IMG/VR virus record: IMGVR_UViG_3300050821_010487
Span: 18,336 to 82,335 of that record
Direction: 5' to 3' (one strand)
Origin: a virus
DNA: 64,000 nt
Under the pieces are notes generated by a model. That model saw only the letters and a program-made list of their open reading frames with translations. It did no database searches and was not told the DNA's origin. The stretch's first letter is position 1, and each line of letters begins with the position of its first letter. A program made the translations under genes and the position numbers. Below are positions 9,210-64,000 of this stretch, piece by piece.

Positions 9210-12200
9210 ATGGACCTGCTAGACCACTTCTCGCGTGATACAGGCTTTCTTGCTATCGTAGAAGCCATGGGCACGTCCTACCGGCTGTGGCGCGGCGAGG
9301 GGCCGCACGATCAGAAGCCGCTGTCGGACGAGCATGCGGGCCGGTGGTTCACCCCAGACCGGCTGACGGCCGAGGACTACGCCTACAAGAGCGGCGGTCA
9401 CCTGCTCCATCTCGACGTCACCGAAGCGGACAAGGAGCACATCACCAAGCCGGACAGCACCTGGCCTTCGGTGGTCAACGGTGACGCTTCGACCATTCAC
9501 GTGAGCCCGGAGCTGGCTGCCCGCAGCGAGCACCACCCCGGGGGCTGCCCGTCCTGCGACCCGGGCCATGACGAAACCCACCGGCACCAGCGGGAGTGGC
9601 TGAAGTCCCAGGCCGCCGCCGAGCCCGCGCGCTACTTCCACATCACTTCACCGGGCAACCGGGCTGGCATCCAGCACCGCGGCCTGGTCCCAGCCGAAGA
9701 CCTGCACGAGGATGAGCCCGGGGAGTCCGGGGGCGGAGACGCCAGCTCCACCTGGTTCCACGTTCTGCACAAGGCGCCTGAGCATCCCCGGCGCGACGTC
9801 TGGGAGCTGACGCACCCGCACCTGTACGACCTGGACGAGGACTCAAACTTCGAGAACGGCGCCAGCAACCCCTTCGTCCGCACTACGCGGGTGGACCCGG
9901 ATCATCTGCGCCTGGTGCACGAGGGCGCCGTTTCACGTGGAACATCGCTGGAGGCTGCTGCCCGCCCCGGCCGGGGCGAGAAGGTCTGCCCCTGCTGCCA
10001 GGGTGAGGGCGAGCACGGCGACGGCTCCGAATGCGACCCGTGCGACGGCCAGGGCATCGTCCACTCCAATGAGCCGGACCGTTACTGCCCCGGCCAGCCA
10101 CAGCCCCGCCGCCGCCACTGGAGGGAGGGAGCGGCCGTGGATGACGAGAAGAGCCCGGATCTCCTGGAGCACTTCCAGGTCGCGGCGATGGCATGGGAGA
10201 ACCAGAGCCCCCGGGACAAGACCCAGTACACCCCCATCAGTGTCCGCCACGCCGGGTTCGCTGGCCTAGTCGGCGACAGCGAGTATGACCGGGAACTGCG
10301 GGAGGATACCGGCGAGGAGCGCGCCGAGGACGGCCATTTTGATGAGGACCTCTACGACGACACGTCGCCCGAGCCGACTCACGAGGAGAAGGCCCACTAC
10401 GACGAGCACGACGAGTGGCCCGACAGTTTCTACGAGCGCCACGACCAGGCCTACGAGCAGGCGGTCAGCCAGCGCAAGAAGGCGGCCGAGGAGGAGGACA
10501 CCCCCGACCACGAGGACGAGGGGCTGATGCACTTCGTCCGCGAGCACGGCGGCAACACCGATCTGTGGAAGAAGCACGGCGAGTTCGGCCCGGTGGACAT
10601 CAAGCACCAGCCGGTCTACGCCACCCAGTCGCATGTCGCCAAGGAGCACATCGAGCGCTACCAGGGCGACCGCCAGGCCCCGAGCCACGCGGAGAGCCTG
10701 CACGGCGACCGGTCCCATGTGGGGTACCTCGGCGATAAGCACCCGCTGTTCGTCACTCACGAGGGCCGGGTGCACACGATCGAGGGCCACCACCGGGTTG
10801 CGACCGACATGGCGATGGGGCGGCACGAGACGCTCGGCTGGCATTTCAACCTGGACAAGCACCCGCGCCTGGCCGACCGCTGGGAGGAGGACCCGGAGGA
10901 CTGGGAAGGCAAGATCGCCGAGCATCACCAGCATCTGCAGGCCCAGGGCGGCTTCGAGCATCCACTGGCACCAGGTCACCTGGGCGAGCAGGGTTACCGG
11001 GTGCACGACGAGAACCGGGGCTTCTACGCCGAGCGCGACAACTGGTCCGGGCACCAGCCGCAGCAGACCTGGGGCACGCTGCACCTGCACCACCCGGATG
11101 GGACCGCTGTGGCTCATCTCGACTACGCCCAGGTCGGCAAGGACGAGGACCCCCATCACGAGATGCATGTCGAGGACCTGCGGTCTGGTGAGGGCGGCAA
11201 GGGCTATGCCTCGGCGCTGATGGACCACGTCTACGCCACCCACCCAGAGCCTGCCGAGGTCTCTCACTCGCTGCGCACCGACGAGGGCGGCGGCTGGTGG
11301 GAGCACTACATCGCCAAGCGGCCCGAGATCGCCGAGCGCGAGCGGCGCCAGGAAGAAGGCGGCGAAGGGCATGAGGTGGTCGCCCACTTCGAGGAAGAAG
11401 CAGCTCCAGCAGCCGGGCCGCGCCCCGCTGCCCTACCTTCCGAGGACTGGGAGGAGCATCTCCGGAAGCTGCGCTACCGCAAGCGCAACGAGCCCCTGAT
11501 GCACCGGGGCATGGCGATCGAGCTGCCGCCCGAGGTGCACGACTTCGTTCATGACCAGTGCCAGACCCGGGACAGGCAGGCTCAGGCGATCCTCGACCAC
11601 CTGAAGAGCCAGCCTCTCGGCATGCACTGGTCCACTGACGAGCGAGTTCCCCGGTTCTTCGCGGGCAAGGAGCGAAAGAACAACCTGCCGGGGTCCACGA
11701 AGGTCATCCTGCACGCGAAGCTGCCCGGGGCCAGCGACATCGAGACCGACCCGCAGAAGCTGCAGGAGGAGGCGGTCTTCCGGCACGACAACTGGATGGG
11801 CGGCGAGCACGAGATCCCGATGAAGGCCGGCGCCCCCGTCCACGTCACGGGGGTGACCTGGTACGGCTACGGCAACCGCAAGCGCACCGGTCATGTCTGG
11901 GGCGAGCAGCATCTCGCTGTCCGGGGCGGGGAACCGGAGCCCGAGATTGAGGTGGTTGCCCACTTCGAGGCCGAGGCGGCTCATCAAGGCCCCCTCACCA
12001 TGGAATACGCCCACAACACCGAAAAGGCTCCCGACATGGGCGAGATTTTCGGCCAGCACGTTGAGCCGCACGGCCGGTACATGGTGCAGCGGGAGCCGGG
12101 CGACTCCTACGGCCAGGACCCGAGGTGGGTGACCGGAACAGTCACCTTTCACAACCCGCTGCACGTTCCTTACGGCGGCCTGGCCAGCGAGCCCACCAAC

Positions 12201-15191: not shown

Positions 15192-18100
15192 GCCGCCAGG
15201 CCGAGGCGGCGGTCACTGAACCTGTTTATGGCGGCTACGCGCACCAGTGGGACGACTACGAAGATCCTGAGGACAACGAGGACGAGTACGACACCTGCTA
15301 CCACTGCCAGCGCAACCACAACCCGCACGAGCACGCGGGAGATCAGACGTTCAGCCCCGACTGGCACGAGGAGCTGCCAAAGATCCCCTCGATCCACCGG
15401 TCGGTCGGTGTCGTCCTGCCTGACGAGCTGGACAAGAAGGTCCACGACCCGGCGACCCCGCCGCACGAGGCCGCCTCGGCGCTGATGCACCACCTGACGA
15501 CCGCCTACCCCTACCAGGGCCACACCCACTGGTCGGCCCATCAGGGGCTGGAGCACGCCGAGAAGACCTTCGGCCATGCCCACCCGGAGGGCTACCACGG
15601 CCCATCGAGCAAGATCACCCGGGTGATGATGCACGCCAAGACCCCCCGCCCGGACGACATCGAGTACGACAACGACTCGCTGATCGAGGACGAGATCAGT
15701 CCCTACCGGCACCCTGAGTACGAGGTCCCGCTGCACCCGAATGCCCCCGTGCATCTCACGGGAGTGAGCTGGAGCCGCCCGCAGACCGGCCGCTGGAACG
15801 AGGGGGGCAGCAAGTGGCACAGTGACCCGGCGCCGGCCGTGCACCATCACATGTTCGGGAAGCCTTTCGAGCTGACTGCCGCCCTGGATAGGGCTGCGGC
15901 TCTCAAGCGTGCCACCGCCGCGATCGAGCACGAGCCCACCGGTGACGGCGCACACTGGTTCGAGCACTTCGATTCTGAGGGCAACTCCGCTGGCCACGCC
16001 ATCGTCCATGAGCGCCCCGATCACACCTGGGTCCAGTCGATGACGGTCAACCCGGGCGAGCGCGGCAAGGGCATCGGCGCCGGGCTGCTCGACCACGTCC
16101 AGAACCACTTCGGCAAGCCGCTGCGGCTCAAGCCCTACCCGATCGGGGAGCGCGAGGACGACCCGGGCGAGGAACAGCTCCGCGACTGGTACGGGCGCCG
16201 GGGCTTCACCGACTACGAGCGCCGCGAGGGCGACGACCTGGACGCGCACGACTGGATGGAGCGTCACGCGGCCGGCGAGATCCTCCGCAACCCGCACACT
16301 CAAGGCCGTGAGTGGTACCACGGCACCAAGGCCAGCAGCGAGCAGCTAGCGGGCGGCTTCCGCATCGCGGACAGCGACCCGGACCCCGACTGGCCGGCGC
16401 ACTGGTCCACCGGGGTGGGCGTGCACTTCGCCGCGCATCACTCAATGGCCAGCAAGTTCGCCGACCCGAACATTGGGGTCGGCGGCAAGGGCGGCGCGGC
16501 CGACCCGTGGCACAGCACCACTCCCTCGGTGGTGCATGCGCGGCTGCACATCACCAACCCGAAGGTGTATCCCAACGAAGACAGGATGGCCGACGACGTC
16601 TTCGAGCACGAGTACGACCACCGGAAGAACTACATCAGCAGGTACCTCGACGGGGGCGATAAGGAGGGCGATAAGGAGGCCCCCTACGCGGCCAGCGACT
16701 ACTTCTCCTACGACCACCACCCTTCGGAACGGCCCTCCCGGGGCGAGGACGAGCACTTCGATGACTGGGAAGACCACAGTGAATGGGGCGAGGAGCAGCC
16801 GGAGCCGGTCTACCGCCGCGAGCAGTGGCTGAACCTGCACCCGGACCAGGCGGGCATCGCCAAGCGGTACCGGGAGCGGCTCCAGTCCGAGGGCCACGAC
16901 GGCATCGTCTACGGCAACAGCGCGCCGGACGAACGAGTACGCTCCTCCAAGCCTGAGTCCAACATGGCGGCCATCGCTTTCCACCCGCACCAGATCGAGA
17001 TCACCAAGCACCACGTCCACGGCGACGAGCACAAGACCGCCGCCCGCTGGGAACCTAGCTCGGGCGTGTTCGGCCCGACGACCGGCCACGACCCCCGGCT
17101 GTTCGAGAACCACGAGCTGCGCCCGGAGGTCCGCCGCGACCTGATGGAGCGCCTCGACCGGGCGCTGCGGGTGGACACCGGCCTGGTGGGCAGCGACTGG
17201 CAGGACTGGACCCGGATCTACCTGGTCGGCGGGTCAGCGTCGGAGTGGGCTGGAGCGCGGCCGAACGACGCCGCCCAGGACCTGGACGTCGTCATCGGGG
17301 TGAACTTCTTCGAGGCACGGCGCCACCAGAGCCAGTCCGATGCCTTCCAGAACATGGACTCCGATCAGATCGCCACCGCGTTCAACTCGGCGCTGCGGGC
17401 GGCGTTCAACGACCCGGACTGGCACCCGGGCTTCGGGGGCACCTGGCAGCTCACCGCCTACGTCAACCCGCTGGCGTGGGACATCACCGCGATCAAGCCG
17501 TACGCGGCCTACGACGTCAGCGACATGAAGTGGGCGGTGCACCCGCCGCACCTGCCCGAGCACTCGGTGGCCGACTTCCACCCGGCGATCCTGGCGATAG
17601 CCCGCGCGGTGGCGACCGAGGTCCGCGCGGTCCTGCGGCTGCCCGAGCCCGCCCGCACCCGCGAGGCCCGCGCGCTGTGGGAGCGCATCCACTCCGACCG
17701 GAGCCGGGCGTTCTCCGGGGAGGGCGAGGGCTGGGAAGATCCTGGGAACCTGATCGAGAAGTACCTCGCTTACGCTCCCGGCAACATCCTCGGCCAGATC
17801 AAGGACCTGGTCTGGGCCCAGACGAAGACGGCCGACCTCCAGCAGCAGGTCAAGACGGCGGTGGCCACGGGCGTCTGGTACCACGGCACCCCCGACGACC
17901 GGAACTGGGAGCACGGCGCTGCCAACGGTTTGCATATCGGAACCGAGGAGGCGGCCCGCCAGGCACTGAACGCCCGGATCGGCAAGCCTCACGAGGGCGA
18001 GTGGGACGGCACCCGGCCGTACGGCAGGACGCTGCTGAGTCCTGCCCAGACCACGGGTGTCGAGCGGAACCTGACCATGCCCCGCTATCCGAGCGGCAGG

Positions 18101-20566
18101 GCGACCTATTCCGACGGCAAGCAGGTCCCGGCCGACGCCCGGCCGAACATCTTCCCGGTGCGGGTCAAAGGCGAGATGGCTAACACCCCGCACGATCCGG
18201 TGCACGACGACTACGCCAACAGCCGGATGCGTGGGCAGATCACCCGGGGACAGGCGCGTCGCGGCTACTACTACACCAACATCGGCGAGGACGCGGGGTC
18301 GCTGTCGGCGGTGGTCCCGTCGGCGGAACACCTGGAGCGGATCGAGCACGAGCCGAAGACGGCTTCGGCTGAGCCCCAGCTCGAAGCGCACGACTACGAG
18401 GGCACCGCCGGCGACCCGGCCCACATCACCCGGAACGAGAGCGGTCTGCTGCCGGTGGATTCGGTCCGGGACCTGCACGGCGTCAACGGCGAGCAGCCCG
18501 GCCACTCGGACTGGCACCGCACCGGGCAGGAGTGGGAGGACTTCAAGGGCGCGGTCGCCCGCGGCGAGGGCGGCGCCGGGGAGCCCATCTTCATCACGGT
18601 GGACCACGGCCAGGAGCCGAAGATCAGCGAGGGCAACCAGCGCCGCGACGCTTACGTGGAGAACGGCGCGTCTCACGTGCCGGTGGAGGTCCGCTACTTC
18701 GGGCATGCCGAGCAGCAGGGCACCGTCCACGAGCGCGCGATGCGCCGGACCGCTGCCGTGGAGCCGTTCGATGAAGAGACCGGAGAGCCCCGGCCGTGGC
18801 ATAAGCGCTGGGAAGGCGAAAGCGATCGGGAGACGTCCGACCGCCGCGAGCGGTATGTCCATCAGGTCGCTGAGCGTCACGGAGTAGGAGCCGAGGTAGC
18901 CAGGCACGCGATCACCCGGGTGGCGCAGGACGTCCGCACAGGCGAGCCTTTTACCGGTGTCCGTGGCTACGGCTACACCCGAAGCCCCGGCGACATGAAC
19001 GACAGCTTCTACACCGAGCGCCGGATCAAGGCCCTCAACGATCCGGAGACGTGGCGCGGCCGGAAGGTTCAGCACGTCTCTACCGATGAGGTTCATGCCT
19101 CCCAGCCATGGCTGAACCCGCCCAAACTCGCCCACAACCTGTTCCACCCTGGCAAGGACCTCCCGGCAATGGAGGGGGAGACCGGTCACCCGGACATCGA
19201 CCCGGATGAATCCTGGGAGGATGCCGGAGAGGAACGCCGCCACCAAGACTCGCTAGGCGCTACCACCCGGTTCGTGCGCCGCTCCGACGGCCGCCTCCAG
19301 GTCGGCGACGGGCACCACAGGGCCGCGATCGACATGCTGCTCGGCAAGGAGACTACCCCGGGGCTGGTGATCAACGAGCACGAGCTGGATTCACCCCCGG
19401 TACGGCTGCACGGCGAGGAGATGACCGCTCCGGAGCTGCACGCCCACATGCTGGAGCACCACGACCGCACCCGGTCCGAGCTGCCCGAGCCCAGGGATGC
19501 CAATCACCTGGACCTGGTGGACGAGCACGACCACAGCCACGAGTTCGATGACCCGAGCCACGTCCACGCTGTCCGCAAGACCGCTTCAGGCTCCGACGGT
19601 GATGACTACTTCACCTGCGCGAAGGGCCACGAGCACTGGGGCGAGCACGGCGCCGCTGGCCTGCTGATCCGGCACCGGGACGACGACGGCCTCTACCGGT
19701 ACCTGCTGCAGAAGCGGGGCCCGGACGGCACGGGCAAGGGCCAGGTTGACCACGGCGGGAAGTGGTCGATCCCGTCGGGGGCGATCGGCGAGGGCGAGGA
19801 GCCCCTGGATGGCGCCAAGCGGGAGTACCGCGAGGAGATGGGCTCGCTGCCCCAGGGCGTCACCCACCACCACTCGGTGACCTCGACAAATTGCGGGGAC
19901 TGGCGGTTCACCACCCACGTGATGGACGCCCCGGAGCGGTTCATGCCGCGCGGCCGGGGCGAGACCGAGGACGAGGTGGCCGGGGCCGCCTGGCACACCG
20001 CCAAAGAGGTCCAGGGCCTCAAGGACCGCGGCGAGCTGCACCCGGCGTTCGCCAAGTCCTGGGACGAGGTCCGGCGCTCGCGCGGCCAGAAGGAAGCCGT
20101 CAAGGGCTACGACCCGGAGCCCCGCACCGGCATGATCTACCTGGACGTCCCGCCTGAGCTGATCCACCAGGTGCCAGGCGGGGTGAACGATTCCCACATC
20201 ACACTGGTGTACCTCGGCAAGGGGCTGAGCGACGAGCAGTTCGGGGAGGCGTGCCGCCGCGCGGCCAAGGCAGCGGCCGGCGCCCAGCCCATGGAGGGCG
20301 TGCTGCGGGGCGTCGAGACCTTCCCGCCGAGCGACGGCAAGACCCCGGCGTTCGTCCCGGCCTACATCCCCGGGATCGGGGAACTGCGCCGCGGCCTGGA
20401 GGACCTGTCGGCGAGCGAGCACAAGGACTACCGTCCGCACCTCACGCTTGGATATCTGGAGCCCGGCGACGAGATGCCGCCGCCGCACCCGCCCGTCCAC
20501 CTGCGGTTCACCCACCTGCACGTGAAGCGCGGCGACCAGGTGGTAGCTTTCCCCCTGGGTGGTTAG
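15167..20566 (+). CDS. second giant multidomain protein: ART, NTase, ParB, NUDIX and 2H phosphoesterase modules (1799 aa)
   Basis: GTG 15167 follows AGAAGG; GTG 15188, overlapping the previous stop as GTGA, is an alternative. Domains by motif: ART 72-203 (HRSV, HWSAH, EYEVP); GNAT 260-367 (RGKGIGAG 299-306); ART 378-615 (WYHGT 383-387); nucleotidyltransferase-like 648-885 (GGS 688-690, D705-L-D707); ART 900-1062 (WYHGT 904-908); ParB-like 1082-1185 (EGNQR 1155-1159); a second ParB-like segment with GDGHHR 1380-1385; NUDIX 1487-1638 with an exact GX5EX7REUXEE box at 1538-1557; 2H phosphoesterase 1653-1799 with HIT 1677-1679 and HLT 1758-1760. KTA[AS]-type tetrapeptides sit at most borders. The combination suggests making and clearing ADP-ribose adducts. 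Confidence 0.83.
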   Translation: MRASPKSVSRQAEAAVTEPVYGGYAHQWDDYEDPEDNEDEYDTCYHCQRNHNPHEHAGDQTFSPDWHEELPKIPSIHRSVGVVLPDELDKKVHDPATPPHEAASALMHHLTTAYPYQGHTHWSAHQGLEHAEKTFGHAHPEGYHGPSSKITRVMMHAKTPRPDDIEYDNDSLIEDEISPYRHPEYEVPLHPNAPVHLTGVSWSRPQTGRWNEGGSKWHSDPAPAVHHHMFGKPFELTAALDRAAALKRATAAIEHEPTGDGAHWFEHFDSEGNSAGHAIVHERPDHTWVQSMTVNPGERGKGIGAGLLDHVQNHFGKPLRLKPYPIGEREDDPGEEQLRDWYGRRGFTDYERREGDDLDAHDWMERHAAGEILRNPHTQGREWYHGTKASSEQLAGGFRIADSDPDPDWPAHWSTGVGVHFAAHHSMASKFADPNIGVGGKGGAADPWHSTTPSVVHARLHITNPKVYPNEDRMADDVFEHEYDHRKNYISRYLDGGDKEGDKEAPYAASDYFSYDHHPSERPSRGEDEHFDDWEDHSEWGEEQPEPVYRREQWLNLHPDQAGIAKRYRERLQSEGHDGIVYGNSAPDERVRSSKPESNMAAIAFHPHQIEITKHHVHGDEHKTAARWEPSSGVFGPTTGHDPRLFENHELRPEVRRDLMERLDRALRVDTGLVGSDWQDWTRIYLVGGSASEWAGARPNDAAQDLDVVIGVNFFEARRHQSQSDAFQNMDSDQIATAFNSALRAAFNDPDWHPGFGGTWQLTAYVNPLAWDITAIKPYAAYDVSDMKWAVHPPHLPEHSVADFHPAILAIARAVATEVRAVLRLPEPARTREARALWERIHSDRSRAFSGEGEGWEDPGNLIEKYLAYAPGNILGQIKDLVWAQTKTADLQQQVKTAVATGVWYHGTPDDRNWEHGAANGLHIGTEEAARQALNARIGKPHEGEWDGTRPYGRTLLSPAQTTGVERNLTMPRYPSGRATYSDGKQVPADARPNIFPVRVKGEMANTPHDPVHDDYANSRMRGQITRGQARRGYYYTNIGEDAGSLSAVVPSAEHLERIEHEPKTASAEPQLEAHDYEGTAGDPAHITRNESGLLPVDSVRDLHGVNGEQPGHSDWHRTGQEWEDFKGAVARGEGGAGEPIFITVDHGQEPKISEGNQRRDAYVENGASHVPVEVRYFGHAEQQGTVHERAMRRTAAVEPFDEETGEPRPWHKRWEGESDRETSDRRERYVHQVAERHGVGAEVARHAITRVAQDVRTGEPFTGVRGYGYTRSPGDMNDSFYTERRIKALNDPETWRGRKVQHVSTDEVHASQPWLNPPKLAHNLFHPGKDLPAMEGETGHPDIDPDESWEDAGEERRHQDSLGATTRFVRRSDGRLQVGDGHHRAAIDMLLGKETTPGLVINEHELDSPPVRLHGEEMTAPELHAHMLEHHDRTRSELPEPRDANHLDLVDEHDHSHEFDDPSHVHAVRKTASGSDGDDYFTCAKGHEHWGEHGAAGLLIRHRDDDGLYRYLLQKRGPDGTGKGQVDHGGKWSIPSGAIGEGEEPLDGAKREYREEMGSLPQGVTHHHSVTSTNCGDWRFTTHVMDAPERFMPRGRGETEDEVAGAAWHTAKEVQGLKDRGELHPAFAKSWDEVRRSRGQKEAVKGYDPEPRTGMIYLDVPPELIHQVPGGVNDSHITLVYLGKGLSDEQFGEACRRAAKAAAGAQPMEGVLRGVETFPPSDGKTPAFVPAYIPGIGELRRGLEDLSASEHKDYRPHLTLGYLEPGDEMPPPHPPVHLRFTHLHVKRGDQVVAFPLGG

Positions 20567-34908: not shown

Positions 34909-34956
34909 TCGGTTCCTTGCAGAACCAACATTACAGGGTTTCTTGCTAACGGTCAA
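34909..34956 (-). promoter_or_regulatory. spacer-operator promoter
   Basis: Minus strand: -35 TTGACC (34956-34951), 17-bp spacer with TTAGCAAGAAACCCTG, -10 TAATGT (34933-34928), then half-site CTGCAAGGAACCGA. GCAAG cores 26 bp apart. The -35 overlaps the TGA stop of the DpdA-like gene upstream. Confidence 0.8.
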
Positions 34957-35768
34957 TCCATCCAGCCCAGCTTCGCCAGCATTCCCTCGCGCCAGAGAAG
35001 AGCAAAGCCGAGGCAGTTGTTGCAGTGCTGGTGGGTGTGCCCCGGCAGCGGCAGCTCCCGGCACGCCGTCAAGGACCAGGACGTCGAGTCCGAGCTGACC
35101 AGGCAGTCGCCGAACAGCTCCAGGCCGGTGGTCTTCACGCCGAAGCCGTGCAGCCGGATGCCGTGGCTGGCGAGGTCGCTGGCGATGATCCCGGCCATCG
35201 TCGTGCTCTGCCGCCGGCAGAAGGTGCCGAGCCCCACCGTCTTGAAGCTGGCCAGGTCCACGCCCGCGTCCTCGTACATCTCCCGGCATCGCAGGTAGTC
35301 GAACCGGCGCTTGCCCTGGAGCGTGGGGATGACCGGGCACGGCCCGTCGCCCCCGGACGGCCACAGCTCCACCAGGCGCAGGTAGTTGTCCACGGTGCGG
35401 CGCAGGTGGTCGTGGACCTGCAGCCCGGTCGCGGCGAGGATCTCGTCCTCATTCATGAAATCCATGCCCGCGGCCCACTGCAGGCTGCCGATCTCCGCCT
35501 GGTAGCGCGCGACGTTCGCGAGGTACTGCTGCTCGGTGAACTGCCAGCGGCCGGTGTGCTTGAGCTGCATGTAGCCGCCCGAGTCCAGCGCCCAGGGGCC
35601 GATCGCCCGGGGAAGGGTCTTGCGGTCGCGCAGGTGCTGGTCGGCGACGAACAGCGGGACGTCTGTCTGCTCCAGCCATGCGGGCTTGTGGGTACCGAGG
35701 TAGAACACAGGGGCCTGAGAGGCCACCGGCCCGGTGGTTAGCCGGGCCGGTGTGGTCGTGGTGGTCAT
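34953..35768 (-). CDS. DpdA-like 7-deazaguanine DNA transglycosylase (tRNA-guanine transglycosylase fold)
   Basis: 271 aa from the ATG at 35768. The transglycosylase signature LDSGGY (61-66) contains the first catalytic Asp (D62); FKTVGLGTFCRR and LHGFGVK resemble later barrel strands; HQHCNNC near the C terminus could supply the zinc ligands. Phage DpdA proteins of this length exchange guanine in DNA for a 7-deazaguanine base supplied as preQ0 or a derivative. No preQ0 biosynthesis gene is in view, so the base may come from the host or from elsewhere in the genome. A tRNA-type substrate cannot be excluded. Starts in a TGATG overlap with the upstream gene. Confidence 0.75.
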   Translation of the reverse strand: MTTTTTPARLTTGPVASQAPVFYLGTHKPAWLEQTDVPLFVADQHLRDRKTLPRAIGPWALDSGGYMQLKHTGRWQFTEQQYLANVARYQAEIGSLQWAAGMDFMNEDEILAATGLQVHDHLRRTVDNYLRLVELWPSGGDGPCPVIPTLQGKRRFDYLRCREMYEDAGVDLASFKTVGLGTFCRRQSTTMAGIIASDLASHGIRLHGFGVKTTGLELFGDCLVSSDSTSWSLTACRELPLPGHTHQHCNNCLGFALLWREGMLAKLGWMD

Positions 35769-56070: not shown

Positions 56071-56210
56071 TGATCATCAGCAGCACGCTCATTCCCCGCT
56101 GCTTCGAGTGCGGGGAAAAGATGTGGCAGTGGAAGTTCCTCACCGTCGGGGGCCTCCCCATCCACTGGCGCCACCTGATCGGCTTCCGCCCGTTCGAGGA
56201 GTCACGATGA
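56070..56210 (+). CDS. 46-aa protein with CxxC
   Basis: TAATG overlap upstream and ATGA overlap with the MFS gene. CFECGEKMWQW forms half a zinc ribbon. Small size limits further statement. Confidence 0.52.
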   Translation: MIISSTLIPRCFECGEKMWQWKFLTVGGLPIHWRHLIGFRPFEESR

Positions 56211-57403
56211 CCGCAACCACGTTCCGTAGCGTGCTCGCCGAGCGCGAGTACCGGGCGGTGTGGGCCGCGCAGCTCGTGAGCATCGCCGGGGACCAGTTCG
56301 CCCGGATCGCCGTGAGCGTCCTGGTCTACCAGCGGACCCGCTCGCCCCTGCTGGCCGCTGCCGCGTTTGCCGCGACGGTCCTGGCGTCGTTCGCGGGCGG
56401 CCTGCTGCTCGGCTGGGTGGCCGACCGTTACCCGAAGCGGGCGGTCATGGTCACCTCTGACGTGGCCTGCACGGGGATCGTGCTGATCATGGCCATCCCT
56501 GGGGTGCCGCTGTGGGCGCTGCTGGCCCTGCTCGGCGTGGTGTCGCTGGCGTTCCAGCCGTTCCTCGCCGCGCGGATGGCAACCAACCGGGAGATCCTCG
56601 GCAAGGACCGCTTCCAGGCCGGCGTCGCCATCACGACCAGCACCTACCAGGTGGGGCAGCTCATCGGCTACAGCCTCGGCGGCGTGATCACCGCGGTGGC
56701 CGGGGTGCACGTAGCGCTGCTGATCGACGCGGCCTCGTTCGCCACCTCGGCGGTGCTGATCCGTGCCTGGGTGCGCCCCCGGCCGCCAGAAGAGCCGGCC
56801 GCCCGGCTGGAGCGGCCGGGGCTGTGGGATGGCGTGCGGCAGGTGTTCTCCTCCCCCGTGGCCCGGACCGCGCTGGCGCTGATGTGCATGGCCGCGTTCT
56901 TCGTCGTCCCGGAGGGGGTGTCGGTGCCGCTGGCCCACCAGCTCGGCGGCGGTGCTGCCACGGCCGGGCTGCTGCTGGCCGCGATGACCGCTGGCGCCGC
57001 GGCGGGGCTGCTCGGCTGGACGCGGCTTGTCCCACCGGGCACGCTGAGTCAGTTCGCCGCGCTGCTGGCGCTGACCGCCTGCGCCATGCTGGTCCCGTTT
57101 GCCTTCTCGCCGCCGCTGGGCCCGGCACTGGCCCTGCTCGCGGCCTCGGGCATCTACGCGGGGTACATCCCGTCGGTGGCCAGCTCTCTGTTCGGCGCGG
57201 TTCCCGCCGAGCACCGGGGCAAGGTGTCCGGGGTGGTCGGCGCGGGCATGGATCTCGGCCAGGGCGTCATGATCCTGGTGGCGGGCGCGGTAGCTCAGCG
57301 GCTCAGCGCTTCGGTGACGATCGCGATCATCGGCGCGGCCGGGACGGTCGTGGCGGTGCCGCTCGCCCTGGCATGGAGGAGAGTCAGCTCTCTTGCTCAT
57401 TAG
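56207..57403 (+). CDS. MFS transporter, probable drug or metabolite exporter
   Basis: 398 aa with about twelve hydrophobic segments. The first loop carries GWVADRYPKRAVM, the MFS G-x-x-x-D-R/K-x-G-R-like signature between helices 2 and 3. N-terminal FRSVLAEREYRAVWAAQLVS resembles the MFS_3-type exporters found with siderophore and antibiotic clusters. It is translated from ATG 56207 in an ATGA overlap inside a phage operon, so it is expressed with phage genes. A full-length transporter is uncommon in phage genomes. Substrate unknown; export of an aminocyclitol or antibiotic is a guess from the cyclase gene 2 kb away. Its TAG stop lies within the next operator. Confidence 0.85.
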   Translation: MTATTFRSVLAEREYRAVWAAQLVSIAGDQFARIAVSVLVYQRTRSPLLAAAAFAATVLASFAGGLLLGWVADRYPKRAVMVTSDVACTGIVLIMAIPGVPLWALLALLGVVSLAFQPFLAARMATNREILGKDRFQAGVAITTSTYQVGQLIGYSLGGVITAVAGVHVALLIDAASFATSAVLIRAWVRPRPPEEPAARLERPGLWDGVRQVFSSPVARTALALMCMAAFFVVPEGVSVPLAHQLGGGAATAGLLLAAMTAGAAAGLLGWTRLVPPGTLSQFAALLALTACAMLVPFAFSPPLGPALALLAASGIYAGYIPSVASSLFGAVPAEHRGKVSGVVGAGMDLGQGVMILVAGAVAQRLSASVTIAIIGAAGTVVAVPLALAWRRVSSLAH

Positions 57404-58190: not shown

Positions 58191-58679
58191 ATGGCCCAGC
58201 GCCAGAGGTACACCCCCCTGCAGCTCCGCATCCTCAAGATGCTCACCGAGCGCGGCCCGATGAGCTGCGCCCAGATGGGCGTCTCCGCCAGGGCGCTGTG
58301 GTGGCTGCGCAGCCACGGCTTCGTCAAGGCCGCGGGGAACGCCAGCGGCCTGTGGGAGGTTACTGACGCTGGCCGCGAGATCTCCCCCAAGCCCGCCACC
58401 TGGCCCGAAGGCTTGGAGGAGGGCGGCTACCACGACATCTCGTGCCGGTGCAGCCGCCATTGCCGCAACTGCTTCGAGGACCTGGACAAGGTCCGGGCCC
58501 TGCAGATCCAGATGATCGAGGACCAGCGCCCCGGCGCCCCCGCCGAGCCGCTGAGCAAGCGTGCCGGGTACTGCTGTGGCTGGTGCCAGGGCCGGGCCCA
58601 GCGCGACCGCCAGCTCGACCGGCACCTGGCCCAGCAAGTTCCCGGCAGCCGCCCGGAAGGGCAGAGAGCCTCCCCGTGA
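58191..58679 (+). CDS. winged-helix plus zinc-site protein, 162 aa
   Basis: N-terminal LQLRILKMLTERGPMSCAQMG... ALWWLRSHGFVKAAG... LWEVTDAGRE matches a winged-helix domain. A Cys-rich C terminus follows: CRCSRHCRNCF and CCGWC. Could be a metal-dependent DNA-binding regulator. Confidence 0.62.
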   Translation: MAQRQRYTPLQLRILKMLTERGPMSCAQMGVSARALWWLRSHGFVKAAGNASGLWEVTDAGREISPKPATWPEGLEEGGYHDISCRCSRHCRNCFEDLDKVRALQIQMIEDQRPGAPAEPLSKRAGYCCGWCQGRAQRDRQLDRHLAQQVPGSRPEGQRASP

Positions 58680-58689
58680 GGCTGGAAGG

Positions 58690-59298
58690 ATGACCGTGAT
58701 GAAGGAGCCCACCTCCCGCGAGCTGGCAGAGAAGATCACCGCGGGCATCCACGAGGCTGTCGTGCTCCGGATGCCCGAGGGCGCCAGCCTCACCCAGATC
58801 CACGCCCACCTGATCGCCAGCAACCTGATGGTGTCCCGCGACACGGTCGTCTTCTGGGTCCGGTCTCTCCACGACTCCGGGAAGCTCGCCTACTCTGTCC
58901 ACCATTTCTGGGTGCTCGGGCCGAACGCCTCGATCCTGCGGTGGGACAAGCCCCCGCCCGAGCTGCCCTACGAGCAGTGGGCCGCCTACCAGGCCGACAG
59001 CACGCCTCCCGGCACCTACCAGCCGAACATGAGCCCGGAGTGGATGGGCCGCTGGAAGGCGAAGATGGCCGGCCAGCGCTCGAAGAACCTCAGCGAGCTG
59101 CAGGTGGTGATCCGCAAGACCGCTGGCGGCGTCCAGGTCAAGATCATCGTCTTCCACAGCGGCGAGATGTCGATGAGCATGAACGGCACCGCACAGTTCT
59201 ACGAAACGGAGGTCGCCGAGCTGCCCCTCGTGGTCGATGAGGCCCGCCAGGCGATGAGGTTGTATGTCCGCCACCACCCTGTCAAGGAAACGGCATAG
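58690..59298 (+). CDS. hypothetical protein with N-terminal HTH, 202 aa
   Basis: ATG 58690 or the downstream ATG 58699, which has better spacing to GAAGGA. Residues 18-75 (ASLTQIHAHLIASNLMVSRD, FWVRSLHDSGKLAY) resemble a winged helix. The C-terminal half is beta-rich (LQVVIRKTAGGVQVKIIVF). Unknown role. Confidence 0.6.
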   Translation: MTVMKEPTSRELAEKITAGIHEAVVLRMPEGASLTQIHAHLIASNLMVSRDTVVFWVRSLHDSGKLAYSVHHFWVLGPNASILRWDKPPPELPYEQWAAYQADSTPPGTYQPNMSPEWMGRWKAKMAGQRSKNLSELQVVIRKTAGGVQVKIIVFHSGEMSMSMNGTAQFYETEVAELPLVVDEARQAMRLYVRHHPVKETA

Positions 59299-59583
59299 AT
59301 GAACCGCAAGCCCAAGCCGGTACTTCCCCCCACCCGCCACCGGAAGCGCTGGCTCGCGGTGCTGCTCTCCGGCGCGTCCAACATCGGCATCATCACGCCC
59401 TGGCTCATCGCTGGCGGCCCGGCCGGGGACGTCCACGTGATGTTCAGCCAGATGCAGAAGATCGGCTGGCTCATCACCCACACCGAGCCCGACCCCGGCC
59501 TCCAGCCGCCGCGGAAGTTCTTCGGCCTGACTCCCGAGGGACGCAGCGAGGTCATGAAGCTGCTGCACCTCGAAGAGGGCTAA
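59299..59583 (+). CDS. hypothetical winged-helix-like protein, 94 aa
   Basis: Basic start, then GASNIGIITPWLIAGGP, VMFSQMQKIGWLI and KFFGLTPEGRSEV, a winged-helix-like layout with LTPEG as wing. Its TAA stop shares bases with the TAG stop of the convergent cyclase gene. Confidence 0.56.
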   Translation: MNRKPKPVLPPTRHRKRWLAVLLSGASNIGIITPWLIAGGPAGDVHVMFSQMQKIGWLITHTEPDPGLQPPRKFFGLTPEGRSEVMKLLHLEEG

Positions 59584-60752
59584 ACCATCTCCGTGACCCT
59601 CGGCCGCAGCGGCAGCGGTGGCATGATCAGCTCGATCGCCCGCCCGGCGATCTTGTCCGGAACCCGCGCCAGGCGGCTGCCTTCCTCGGTGTGCACGGTC
59701 CCCAGGCTGTCGAGGAGGACCATGTCCACCGAACCCTGCTCCGGCATGCGGTAGCCCCGCTTGTTGTCCTTGTGCACGGCCGCCAGGACATCCCGGGGCG
59801 GTATCCGGTGTTCCAGGGTCATCGGTGCGCCCACCTTGGCCAGGATCAGCCGGTGGGCATGCTCGCCGGAGGCGGCGAGGTACCCCATCTCCGCGGAGAT
59901 GCGGGCAGCGGCGAGCATGCCCAGCGCGACCGCCAGGCCGTGAGGAATCCCGCCCGGGGCGAGCAGCTCGATCGCATGGCCGATCGTGTGCCCGTACTCC
60001 AGGGCGAGGCCTGGCCCGGTTTCCCGGGGGTCCTGGCGCATCACCTTCTGCTTGGCGGTGATGCACAGCGAGATGAAGTCCGACAGCTCCCAGATGCTGT
60101 AGTCCACCTCCGGCCGCAGCCGGGCCATGGCCCACTTCATCCGCTCCGGCTCGATCGCCAGGACGTTCTTGGCCATCTCGCACAGAGCTGAACGGATCTC
60201 GTCGTCCGGCAGCGTCTTGAGGAAGTTCAGGTCCGCCCAGATGAACTCGGGTGCGTGGAACGCGCCGAGGTGGTTCTTGCCCTCGGGAGAGTTGACCGCC
60301 TGCTTGAGGCTGAGCACCGAGTCGGACATGGCCAGCAGGGTGGTGGGGATGTGGACGAGCCGGGCGCCGCGCAGGAACAGGTGGGCCAGCAGCCCGGCGA
60401 CGTTGCCGACAAGGCCGCCGCCGAGCGCGACCACGACCGACCGCCTGGTGCACCCGTCCCGGAGCGCTGCCCCGGCCAGCTCACCGACCGCTTCGAGGGT
60501 CTTCGCCTGCTCCCTGGTGGTGATCGAGTAGACGCCTGTGGGCGCGTGCAGGGTGAGGATCTCGTAGACCCTGGCCGTGTGCTTCGGGGGGAGCTTGCGG
60601 TCAACCACCAGGATGAACCGGTCGGCGTCCAGGCGCCGCAGGAGCCCGCAGAGGGTGCGGCTGTCGTTGCGGGCCCGCAGGTGGTAGCTGAACGCATGCG
60701 TCCCGAACTCGATGTGCTGGTCGAACTCGGCGGTGAGCTGAACGGTGGTCAT
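59580..60752 (-). CDS. sugar-phosphate cyclase resembling 2-deoxy-scyllo-inosose synthase
   Basis: 390 aa, dehydroquinate-synthase fold. NAD+-binding GGGLVGNVAG (111-120), DSVLSLKQAVN with K150, CEMAKN with E192, EYGHTIGHAIE with H255, and IPHGLAV with H271; E192, H255 and H271 are the expected zinc ligands. The SLKQAVN and EYGHT forms fit 2-deoxy-scyllo-inosose synthases, which convert glucose 6-phosphate to the aminoglycoside ring precursor, better than dehydroquinate synthase (which has GGKTAVN and LGHTFGHAIE). The related 2-epi-5-epi-valiolone synthases are another possibility. ATG 60752 follows GGGAAGAGG. No aminotransferase or other ring-tailoring gene is in view. Confidence 0.78.
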   Translation of the reverse strand: MTTVQLTAEFDQHIEFGTHAFSYHLRARNDSRTLCGLLRRLDADRFILVVDRKLPPKHTARVYEILTLHAPTGVYSITTREQAKTLEAVGELAGAALRDGCTRRSVVVALGGGLVGNVAGLLAHLFLRGARLVHIPTTLLAMSDSVLSLKQAVNSPEGKNHLGAFHAPEFIWADLNFLKTLPDDEIRSALCEMAKNVLAIEPERMKWAMARLRPEVDYSIWELSDFISLCITAKQKVMRQDPRETGPGLALEYGHTIGHAIELLAPGGIPHGLAVALGMLAAARISAEMGYLAASGEHAHRLILAKVGAPMTLEHRIPPRDVLAAVHKDNKRGYRMPEQGSVDMVLLDSLGTVHTEEGSRLARVPDKIAGRAIELIMPPLPLRPRVTEMV

Positions 60753-60857
60753 CGGGCGCCTCTTCCCGGTAGCTGGCAACTCCTGCCGAGCATGCGCCCG
60801 TGACCTTGCGGACAACCTTGCAGTTTTGTTGATGCCCAGGCCAGGCCCGGGAAAGGC

Positions 60858-60890
60858 CAGGGCCCCAGCCATATGCCGGCCGGGGCCCTG
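60858..60890 (-). terminator. strong GC hairpin downstream of the 63-aa gene
   Basis: CAGGGCCCC (60858-60866) pairs with GGGGCCCTG (60882-60890); inner bases extend this to about 13 bp with one G-T pair. It follows the 63-aa minus-strand gene by 17 bp and precedes the cyclase gene. The minus-strand sequence continues GCCTTTCC, a weak T-run. Confidence 0.6.
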
Positions 60891-60907
60891 ATGATCGAGA
60901 GCGGCTC

Positions 60908-61099
60908 TTAGCTGCTGTCCTCCGTCTCGCACTCGGCACGCAGCCGGGCACCTGAGCAGAGGGCCGTGAACTGAGCCCTGGAAACTGTTCTGCCCCGGCG
61001 ATCTTGTGGCCTGATGAGCATTCTGAGCACAGGCTGGGTGCAGATCGCCGGCCTCCCCTCCGAGATGAGGTAGCGTTCCGCGGTCAGGTCGGGTGGCAT
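60908..61099 (-). CDS. hypothetical protein, 63 aa
   Basis: CAGGAGG precedes the ATG at 61099. Basic middle (RMLIRPQDRRGRTVSR) and two Cys near the end. No family recognised. Lies between the hydrolase and cyclase genes. Confidence 0.52.
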   Translation of the reverse strand: MPPDLTAERYLISEGRPAICTQPVLRMLIRPQDRRGRTVSRAQFTALCSGARLRAECETEDSS

Positions 61100-61182
61100 T
61101 GGCGCCTCCTGATCCACCTGGGGGACCACTCCCCACTGGCATGCTCAGCCGGAGACCGGCCTAAACCAGGACCAACCGGGGG

Positions 61183-62355
61183 TTACTCTGCGCAAGCGCC
61201 CGCCGGCAGCGCCTCGTGGTGGAAGTACCGCCAGAAGATTCGCCCGGCCCCCTCGGGCTCGGACACCGCGCTCGTCAGGTCGGCGGTGGCGATCATGATC
61301 CCCGGCTGCAGGCTCCAGGCGACCACCCCGATGCCCCACTGGTGCAGGCACCGCAGGTAGTTCCCCATGGTCTCGGTCGAGCGGGACCAGTCGTAGCCGC
61401 CCCGGTAGTTGGTCATCTCGCCGTTGACCACCGGGACCCCCGCTTCGGCGAGGTAGCCGAACTGGTGCCACCAGACGCGCTCGGTGGGTGCGCACTTGTT
61501 CGGCCATGGGCAGCCGGGCTTGTGAAAGGAATACACCAGGCCCTGGCACCACGCCACCCGCTGCTGGCAGGGGACCAGCGGAACGCCGCCGAGCTGGCTG
61601 CCCCAGGCCTTGCCCTCCAGCCAGAGCTGGTTCTGCGAGCCGATCGAGCGGACGTAACGGGCCAGCGGCCACATCTTCGCCTGCCACACCGCCCAGCCGC
61701 AGACCTTGGTCTGGTTCCCCTGGTTGTGCGGCTCGCAGCGGGGTTCGTTGAACAGGTCGAAGACGACCCGCGGATTGTGCCCGTAGCTCCGGGTGAAGTG
61801 GCGCCAGAAGCTGTAGGTCGCCGCGGTCGGGCCCTGCTCGTTCTCGGGGAAGCCGGTGGCGGGCTCGGTCTGCGCGTTCACGATCACGGCCAGGTGGCGG
61901 TGCAGCGCGTAGCCGATGATGTGCTGGACCGAGTGGTAGTAGCCCGGCGACCACAGGTTGCCCTTCGGGCCGACCAGCTTGTCCTGGAGGATCTGCAGCC
62001 GGATCGCGTTGCCGTGCCAGCTCTTCCACCGGGGGTGCCCTGGCGTGCTGACCGCGCGGATCTGCGACTCGGCGGACCGGGTGAACAGCAGCCAGTTCTC
62101 CAGGGAGGACAAGGCGATGGCCCGGATGCCGCCCGGCCGGGGATAGCGGGAGCAGTCGGCGACGGGGCAGATGCGGAAGCCCGCCGCGGGCGCTGTCACC
62201 GCGGGTGGAGCGAGCCTGGCAGCGGGGGAGCGGAGCACGAACGGCGTGACCGCGAAGGCGGCCAGCGCGAAGGCGACGGTGAGCCAGGCCCATCCCCCGA
62301 ACTGGCCTTTGCGGCGATGGCGGACGCGCGGCAGTGGCGCAGTGATGTCAGTCAT
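61183..62355 (-). CDS. membrane-anchored GH5-like glycoside hydrolase
   Basis: 390 aa from the ATG at 62355. A basic N terminus and a single hydrophobic helix (about 22-41) form a signal anchor, so the enzyme domain would be outside the cell membrane. The barrel shows the GH5 catalytic pair: FDLFNEPR with acid/base E204 and VVNGEMTNY with nucleophile E313, plus YSFHKP and AWSLQPG typical of the later strands. GH5 enzymes retain configuration and cleave beta-linked glycans such as cellulose. Substrate is unclear; host capsule or mycelial glycan is possible. A phage gene of this type is unusual, and it lies beside the cyclase in a host-like block. Confidence 0.78.
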   Translation of the reverse strand: MTDITAPLPRVRHRRKGQFGGWAWLTVAFALAAFAVTPFVLRSPAARLAPPAVTAPAAGFRICPVADCSRYPRPGGIRAIALSSLENWLLFTRSAESQIRAVSTPGHPRWKSWHGNAIRLQILQDKLVGPKGNLWSPGYYHSVQHIIGYALHRHLAVIVNAQTEPATGFPENEQGPTAATYSFWRHFTRSYGHNPRVVFDLFNEPRCEPHNQGNQTKVCGWAVWQAKMWPLARYVRSIGSQNQLWLEGKAWGSQLGGVPLVPCQQRVAWCQGLVYSFHKPGCPWPNKCAPTERVWWHQFGYLAEAGVPVVNGEMTNYRGGYDWSRSTETMGNYLRCLHQWGIGVVAWSLQPGIMIATADLTSAVSEPEGAGRIFWRYFHHEALPAGACAE

Positions 62356-62472: not shown

Positions 62473-63531
62473 ATGGCTGACGACCTGTATCCGGTGGCGC
62501 AAAAGGGCGTAGGCGTCCGTATTGCGCATGATCCGGGCGATCCTCTCATTACCTCCCATTGCCCATTTTGCGGGTCGGGACAGGTCGTAGGGCGCAGCGA
62601 TGGAACAATTAGCTGCGATTTCTGTGGGCAGGTCTATATTGTCCGGGTTCAGCCCGCGTTCCCCGGCATGCCCCAGGCACCGATGGGCCCCGGCGCCCCC
62701 TCAGACATCGGCCCCGACGGCGGCGTGCTGCCCCCCGACGCGATGGGCCCCGACGGCCTGCCCATGGGCGGCGCGGAGATGGGCCCAGACGGCGAGCCCC
62801 TGGACGACGAGGGCTTCCCGCCCGATGAGATGGACGACGAGGAGGGCGGGCCGCCCGAGGACCTCTCAGGGCCTCCTGGAGCCGCGGACGACGAGGATGC
62901 AGACGACGAGCCGCCCCCGCCCAAGAAGAAGGACAAGGGCAAGTCCAAGAAGGGCTCCCTCACCACCTACCACGGCCTCAACGGCGAGGTGCTGACCGAG
63001 AGCCAGTTCATCAGGCACCTGGCCGCAACCTTGTCCGGTGGCCACCCGGCCGTGATGGCCCAGCTCCGTGCCGAGGCAGAGGTCGGCCCGCACGCTCACT
63101 ACCCGAGCGGCCCAGAGCCGGGAGCCGGCCACTACTGCCAGCGCTGCGGCCAGGGCATCGAGCAGTCCCCCGCGGGCCACTGGGTTCCCCGCCTGAGCAA
63201 GGTGCCTCTCGACCCATCCGGGTACGCGCCGGTGTCTCCCGCGGACCGCAAGCCACGGGCTACGCCGGCACCGCAGCTCCCCCTGGCGCCGATGCACAAC
63301 CCCCGGAGAACAGCCGCGTTCCACCAGGACGCCCGCGGCCATGGCTCCGGCGCCAGCAACCCCGACCAGTGGCCGACCCAGGGCGAGGTCGTGCATCACG
63401 TCCTCCAGCGGCACCCCGAGATCCACGACGCCTTCACCCCCGAGGCCGCTGACGCCGCGCACCGGTCGATCCACGAGCACGTCCCCGAGTACCTCGACCA
63501 CGCCCACCACGACCAGGCGGCCGTGGCCTGA
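62473..63531 (+). CDS. zinc-ribbon protein with acidic Pro/Gly linker, portal-adjacent (352 aa)
   Basis: GGGAGG precedes ATG 62473. CPFC and CDFC (30-33 and 48-51) make an N-terminal zinc ribbon, then a long Gly/Pro/Asp linker with MGPDG repeats (65-150), a Lys-rich segment, a helical domain, CQRCG (near 219) and a C-terminal His-rich helix. RTAA at 279-282 matches the border tetrapeptide of the giant proteins. Its stop overlaps the portal start (TGATG). Possibly a virion accessory or scaffold; unproven. Confidence 0.68.
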   Translation: MADDLYPVAQKGVGVRIAHDPGDPLITSHCPFCGSGQVVGRSDGTISCDFCGQVYIVRVQPAFPGMPQAPMGPGAPSDIGPDGGVLPPDAMGPDGLPMGGAEMGPDGEPLDDEGFPPDEMDDEEGGPPEDLSGPPGAADDEDADDEPPPPKKKDKGKSKKGSLTTYHGLNGEVLTESQFIRHLAATLSGGHPAVMAQLRAEAEVGPHAHYPSGPEPGAGHYCQRCGQGIEQSPAGHWVPRLSKVPLDPSGYAPVSPADRKPRATPAPQLPLAPMHNPRRTAAFHQDARGHGSGASNPDQWPTQGEVVHHVLQRHPEIHDAFTPEAADAAHRSIHEHVPEYLDHAHHDQAAVA

Positions 63532-64000
63532 TGCGCGTCGTCTACAGCCCCGGGGCCGCGCAGCGCGAGCAGGCGCACATCGCCAGCCTCTCGCGCGGCT
63601 TCGCGTTCGGCTCCCGCGGCCTGCGCGACGAGCAGATGACCGACGAGGTCCGCGAGGCGCGCAAGAACAGGCGGATCAACGCCCGCACCTCGATGCTCGG
63701 CCGGCGCACCGCGGCCTACGGCGCCGGCTCGGCTGGCGGGGCCGGCGGCTCGGACATCCAGTTCGCGACCGGACGCCCCCGCGATCCGCTGTTCTACTGG
63801 CGGCAGAACAACCTTCCCTATGACTTTTCCCAGAACGAGGAGCTGGCGAAGGTCCGGGCATTCTGCCGCCTGCTGTACCAGACCGATCCTATCGTCGGGT
63901 CCTGCGTCGATATCTTTTCGAAGTTCCCGGTGGTCGGCGCGCATCTGCAGTGCAAAGATTCCCGGCTGGAGGAGTTCTACGGCGGTCTGTTCTTCGATGA
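63531..64000 (+). CDS. portal protein (N-terminal part, cut by window edge)
   Basis: The visible 156 residues include a basic, disordered N terminus (ARKNRRINARTSML) with RTAA at 59-62, and then DPLFYWRQNNLPYDFSQNEELAKVRAFCRLLYQTDPIVGSCVDIFSKFPVVG, the classical start of large-phage portals. It would form the dodecameric ring that joins head and packaging motor. The C terminus is outside the window. Confidence 0.82.
   Translation, partial: MRVVYSPGAAQREQAHIASLSRGFAFGSRGLRDEQMTDEVREARKNRRINARTSMLGRRTAAYGAGSAGGAGGSDIQFATGRPRDPLFYWRQNNLPYDFSQNEELAKVRAFCRLLYQTDPIVGSCVDIFSKFPVVGAHLQCKDSRLEEFYGGLFFD

Follow-up and report, generated by a model that had tools for sequence, protein, structure and literature searches.

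We describe a gene for a cyclase of the 2-deoxy-scyllo-inosose synthase type in viral DNA from IMG/VR (record IMGVR_UViG_3300050821_010487). The window, that is, the whole stretch analysed, is 64,000 nucleotides long and corresponds to positions 18336-82335 of an 82,335-bp linear virus record, itself a fragment; record-wide counts cover the whole 82 kb, including the first 18.4 kb outside the window. The cyclase, P0001 (390 aa; 59580-60752, minus strand), was studied by Pfam, phmmer, alignment, tree and structural model. By computation the gene is intact and phage-embedded, and its product lies in the clade of 2-deoxy-scyllo-inosose (DOI) synthases (DOIS), with the DOIS-conserved residues and the DOIS fold. 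Very probably it encodes a functional DOI synthase carried as a single cargo gene (a moron, or auxiliary metabolic gene, AMG) by a large actinobacterial tailed phage; this confidence attaches to enzyme identity and phage location, not to role. The enzyme family is known, and the setting is new and unexplained. In everything searched, this is the only virus-borne sugar-phosphate cyclase outside the shikimate pathway, and its predicted reaction is the committed step of 2-deoxystreptamine formation.

The reading frame of P0001 continues open upstream, giving 520 aa if counted from 61142. The start at 60752, which an earlier note on this DNA had also chosen, is sound because homologues of 382-393 aa align to the 390-aa protein from about residue 2 and because GGGAAGAGG, a ribosome-site-like (Shine-Dalgarno-like) sequence, lies directly 5' of the ATG. 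GGGAAGAGG belongs to a 430-bp non-coding leader (60753-61182, minus strand) between the cyclase start and the stop of the neighbouring GH5 gene. A consensus scan of this leader for a sigma-70 promoter gave nothing above chance.

Pfam finds in P0001 the two domains of dehydroquinate synthase (DHQS)-type cyclases, DHQ_synthase (4e-33) and DHQS_C (2e-24). Among solved structures, the top phmmer match was the DOIS BtrC (PDB 2d2x; E = 2e-68, 235 bits), with DHQS matching at E >= 3e-39 and at most 138 bits; at the level of sequence, the resemblance to BtrC is far beyond chance. To compare residues, we aligned P0001 with 68 DOIS-like proteins (BtrC and 67 others) and 26 other cyclases. All 50 of the 50 columns conserved at >= 97% across the 68 DOIS-like proteins are retained, among them the metal ligands E192, H255 and H271 and K150 of the SLKQAVN motif. 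The NAD loop is present as GGGLVGN (G111-G113 and N117). At positions that separate DOIS from DHQS, P0001 carries the residue of the 68 DOIS-like rows: N117 (D in DHQS), S148 (G), Q151 (mostly T), E252 (N), N330 (K), and G333-Y334, which have no equivalent in DHQS. The earlier note had claimed intact zinc ligands and NAD loop and had named SLKQAVN and EYGHTIGH as signatures setting DOIS apart from DHQS; the alignment bears these claims out, the second motif reading LEYGHTIGH, since the DOIS columns are kept throughout, including those that discriminate against DHQS.

A more ordinary AMG would be an AroB-type DHQS that boosts aromatic amino acid synthesis. There is precedent in that 3-dehydroquinate synthase is listed among gut-virome AMGs (PMC12927239), and P0001 scores 235 bits on the NCBIfam aroB equivalog model. 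However, the cyclase of a tobramycin producer scores 212 bits on the same model, and both fall below its cut-off of 305. The D, G, N and K conserved in DHQS are replaced in P0001 by the DOIS residues N117, S148, E252 and N330, and as an AroB candidate the protein fails the GGG..GD loop, GGK[TV], LNxGHT and the D-K-K motif as well as a place in the DHQS clade. With a DHQS grouping also rejected in the tree below (p-AU 5e-48), we consider an AroB extremely unlikely. The EEVS and DDGS classes were likewise discarded, as their rows read SP (GHTxSP) where P0001 reads GHTIGH, and P0001 lies outside their clade.

For the phylogeny, references taken from PDB alignments were BtrC, ValA (EEVS) and the PDB 5tpr cyclase, which we take to be DDGS. 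The aDHQS reference was an AHBA-cluster protein from a Streptomyces plasmid (L135), the DHQS references came from 14 genomes and from plasmids, and the DOIS-like set came from 84 loci. A quick tree of 95 rows split the DOIS-like proteins from all others with support of 100 and placed P0001 in a 15-row set together with a near clade of bacterial homologues (support 95). A careful tree of 44 rows separated DOIS-like proteins from DHQS, aDHQS, EEVS and DDGS at 100/100 and put P0001 inside the DOIS clade, grouped at 100/98 with ten uncharacterised bacterial homologues of that near clade. BtrC's group is the next sister of P0001 and the near clade (90/78, not firm). In the careful tree, the approximately unbiased (AU) test rejected a grouping of P0001 with DHQS and aDHQS, which was worse by 81 log units (p-AU 5e-48); grouping it with all non-DOIS cyclases cost 35 log units (p-AU 0.0015). 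None of the tree analyses favoured the DHQS side. Phylogeny was a check that the earlier note had proposed, with a place among DHQS as the outcome contrary to its reading; P0001 falls inside the DOIS clade.

The predicted structure agrees. An AlphaFold2 model from a 36-row alignment has a pLDDT of 94.4, and in Foldseek the two DOIS entries 2gru and 2d2x rank first (TM 0.84-0.88, 34-35% identity), followed by DHQS. One of these two entries carries carbaglucose-6-phosphate.

Several points weigh against a standard DOI synthase. For P0001 grouped with the non-DOIS cyclases as a whole, the AU test on the quick tree reached only p = 0.06; set against 0.0015 with 44 rows, this test is sampling-sensitive. 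The branch of P0001 is long (0.9-0.95) and its nearest relative is only about 50% identical. The near clade is uncharacterised, with cupin and SDR companions unlike those of classical 2-deoxystreptamine clusters. Partner enzymes are missing from the record, although this is an 82-kb fragment and relatives have about 160-166 kb; a host-pathway or other role of the cyclase is unsupported. Because of the uncharacterised near clade and the long phage branch, the substrate or product could have changed: P0001 would then be a DOIS-clade cyclase acting on another hexose 6-phosphate or making a differently configured carbocycle, and the same shift may apply to the near cyclase-cupin-SDR clade. The conserved cupin and SDR, the branch length of 0.95 and the 50% identity speak for such a shift. 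We nonetheless think it unlikely, as every one of the 50 DOIS-conserved columns is unchanged and as BtrC and the cyclases of the TobC strain, which branch outside the near clade and P0001, together bracket both in the tree. Both BtrC and TobC (strain DSM 40477), each expressed alone in Bacillus subtilis, have been shown by measurement to produce DOI (PMC6170601). The two cyclases of DSM 40477 are L045 and L069, either of which may be TobC.

The cyclase is a cellular-type metabolic gene with one viral lineage on both flanks. To its left, g113 (58191-58679, plus strand) has a 44% identical homologue in the portal-relatives L092 and L093, and g114 (58690-59298, plus strand) is 51% identical over 102 aa to a protein of the portal-relative L090, a 165-kb phage. 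To its right, g118 (62473-63531, plus strand) encodes a conserved CPFCGSGQVVGRSDG zinc-ribbon protein that is portal-adjacent in 21 related viral loci, followed by the N-terminal part of the portal protein (63531-64000, plus strand), cut by the record end. Portal identity reaches 81% within a group of soil phages whose records measure 160-166 kb, and is about 30-40% to phages of Gordonia, Rhodococcus and Mycobacterium that have 135-156 kb. Because g113 and g114 share one viral lineage with g118 and the portal, and because P0001 agrees in codon use with the other large genes of the phage, we conclude with high confidence that the gene is phage-borne, in a lineage of soil actinophages of about 160 kb. 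An assembly chimera or bacterial flank, with the gene belonging to a host chromosome, is very unlikely. It would suit a linear fragment that is the only record known with the gene (near-identical records may be hidden), yet besides the shared lineage and phage-like codons the cyclase is tightly packed against g115, and no bacterial gene cluster surrounds it.

This g115 is a 94-aa open reading frame (59299-59583, plus strand) with a weak PadR-like C-terminal match below cut-off; it and the cyclase are convergent, and their stops overlap by 4 bases. On the other side lies further cargo, a GH5 cellulase-family glycosidase (61183-62355, minus strand) with an N-terminal hydrophobic segment. Cyclase and GH5 stand on the minus strand amid plus-strand genes, as is typical of cargo. 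The GH5 protein is 82.5% identical over 332 aa to the gene L132:5785-6963, and its DNA is 83% identical over 983 bp, in an IMG/VR phage contig that bears an integrase and is unrelated elsewhere; such a near-copy argues that cargo moves between phages, and by sequence the sharing is a recent exchange of a putatively secreted glycosidase. A comparison of the GH5 gene with plasmids, made for host assignment, gave no match. As insertion footprints, direct repeats amounted to imperfect pairs of 14-35 bp with no consistent flank. An exporter-like MFS transporter (56207-57403, plus strand; MFS_1) matches H+ antiporter and EntS-like NCBIfam models best, below their cut-offs; no other viral copies of it were found, and any link to the cyclase would be hypothetical.

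The record also encodes a primase, a UvsX-like recombinase, a DNA methyltransferase(-like) protein, a topoisomerase-like protein and DpdA. The ~160-kb soil actinophages (L087-L130) form a group united by its portal gene and by the CPFCGSGQVVGRSDG zinc-ribbon protein encoded beside it; known phages of Gordonia, Rhodococcus and Mycobacterium are only distant from this group. Two giant proteins, of 1792 aa (15188-20566, plus strand) and 1993 aa (9210-15191, plus strand), are also encoded; the former unites GNAT, NUDIX and 2'-5' RNA ligase-like domains in a single polypeptide, an unusual combination for a phage protein.

The cyclase is unique among the viruses searched (IMG/VR, phage records and BFVD). 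Three scans of 2.9 million IMG/VR contigs, from which near-identical records may be left out, used the single sequence, a five-sequence alignment and an EYGHTxGH DNA pattern, and found no second viral copy. The single pattern match, L173, was discarded as a chance match inside a phosphoesterase-like open reading frame. The DHQ_synthase domain is absent from 21 portal-relative records, several of them of 160 kb or more, and tblastn of 50,697 phage records returned only weak AroB-like matches (28-35%), several of which sit in contigs that carry a phage label but are bacterial or lack annotation. Foldseek of the model against the viral structure library BFVD gave no match at E 0.001 or better. 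In the open-licence literature, we found no paper joining "2-deoxy-scyllo-inosose" and "phage". A gene unique to one record and with no known function for phage growth could be a recently acquired, non-functional passenger in decay. The frame is open, however, and the 50 conserved columns have all persisted, with the nearest kin about 50% identical, which argues for long divergence under purifying selection and makes decay highly improbable.

From family chemistry, P0001 with NAD+ and a divalent metal would oxidise C4 of glucose 6-phosphate (G6P); phosphate would be eliminated, C4 re-reduced and the ring closed by aldol addition, yielding DOI and phosphate. We infer DOI synthase activity on this footing. 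Lone btrC, kanC or tobC is sufficient for DOI in B. subtilis (PMC6170601), so the phage gene alone could act, and an infected host would be expected to convert part of its G6P to DOI.

Pathway partners are a different matter. A DegT aminotransferase lies within 10 kb of the cyclase in 67 of the 84 bacterial DOIS-like loci, and cupin and SDR genes stand beside it in all 12 near-clade loci (L007-L018), mostly with DegT too, as well as in the Chloroflexota locus L041. Some near-clade loci add an L-amino acid ligase, a WelO5-like oxygenase or a glutamine synthetase-like gene. Searches of the 82-kb phage record for DegT, cupin, SDR and glycosyltransferase family 2 (GT2) genes found none, and the cyclase is an orphan there. 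Membership of an aminoglycoside or aminocyclitol gene cluster was thus rejected, with neither DegT nor other pathway genes in the 82 kb. The earlier note had suggested looking for related genes elsewhere in the genome, and had offered antibiotic-pathway cargo as one of three roles, beside cyclitol supply for DNA or capsid modification and altered host metabolism, without preferring any; as a whole pathway such cargo is unsupported by the 82 kb, about half of the genome being probably unseen.

The role that we put forward tentatively is that DOI feeds into aminocyclitol synthesis encoded by the host, the end product of which benefits the infected cell or keeps rivals out. Aminoglycosides block phage infection at an early step (PMC9239200) and could in this way shut out rivals, which adds to the interest of this role, but its superinfection-exclusion form is improbable. 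Also doubtful is a wider version, in which phage-made DOI raises the host's infection-blocking compounds against rival phages or is exported by the phage MFS protein as a signal or toxin. If true, the phage would stand as the first virus that encodes, as a weapon, the committed step in forming an antibiotic ring. The cyclase gene makes it testable whether phages manipulate antibiotic-type metabolism in soil actinobacteria. Of lower or undefined likelihood are an effect through G6P being diverted or through DOI as such, and a supply of DOI to phage genes that lie in the unseen portion of the genome.

A self-use role, in which enzymes encoded on the unsequenced half join DOI, or a compound derived from it, to phage DNA or virion, is also compatible with a DOI synthase. 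The phage presumably modifies its DNA, since it encodes the DNA-base-modifying DpdA and a DNA methyltransferase-like protein, and half of the genome is unseen. On the other hand, the 82 kb lacks GT2, aminotransferase, QueC and QueD genes, and decoration of DNA or capsid is without positive evidence. We know of no cyclitol-modified DNA, and regard self-use as quite improbable. DpdA itself (34953-35708, minus strand; PF23859, 267 bits) predicts insertion of 7-deazaguanine into DNA; searches of the 82-kb record for QueC and PTPS/QueD found neither. Of 18 portal-relative records, only G001, which is the phage of L090, likewise has DpdA, there with an in-frame TGA.

The phage cyclase also points to its nearest kin, an uncharacterised bacterial cyclase-cupin-SDR cluster family. 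These clusters (L007-L018, at about 5-20 kb in each locus; in Actinomycetota and Pseudomonadota) hold a DOIS-like cyclase, cupin and SDR, often with DegT, ATP-grasp/L-amino acid ligase, MFS, GATase, glutamylputrescine synthetase-like and WelO5-like genes. Their product may be an amino-cyclitol dipeptide assembled in a bacilysin-like manner. Separately, the linear plasmid of Streptomyces sp. NBC_00015 carries an orphan DOIS and an MFS transporter (L005:9896-12609); none of the other listed pathway genes occurs within 10 kb. A cyclase-MFS pairing in the phage by analogy with this plasmid was considered and dropped, the two MFS proteins being unrelated.

Compared with known systems, P0001 is closest in form to BtrC of Niallia (Bacillus) circulans (2d2x, 2gru), with a shared fold (TM 0.84-0.88), all DOIS-conserved residues and a similar length; identity is about 34%, and BtrC-like genes adjoin DegT, radical SAM and glycosyltransferase genes (L050), whereas the phage gene stands alone. 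The near-clade cyclases, from Streptomyces lycii, Umezawaea, Pseudoduganella, Lysobacter, Mycobacterium europaeum and Nocardia, are 47-51% identical to P0001 and form one clade with it (100/98), but head clusters whose cupin and SDR the phage lacks. The NBC_00015 plasmid (L005) offers the same picture of a DOIS without other listed pathway genes and with a transporter nearby, although its DOIS belongs to the aminoglycoside-type branch of the tree. Among viruses, the likeness is to the glycoside hydrolase AMGs of soil viruses such as the viral chitosanase (PMC9485262), metabolic cargo of the kind to which the neighbouring GH5 gene belongs; those enzymes degrade polymers, whereas the cyclase is an enzyme of small-molecule biosynthesis.
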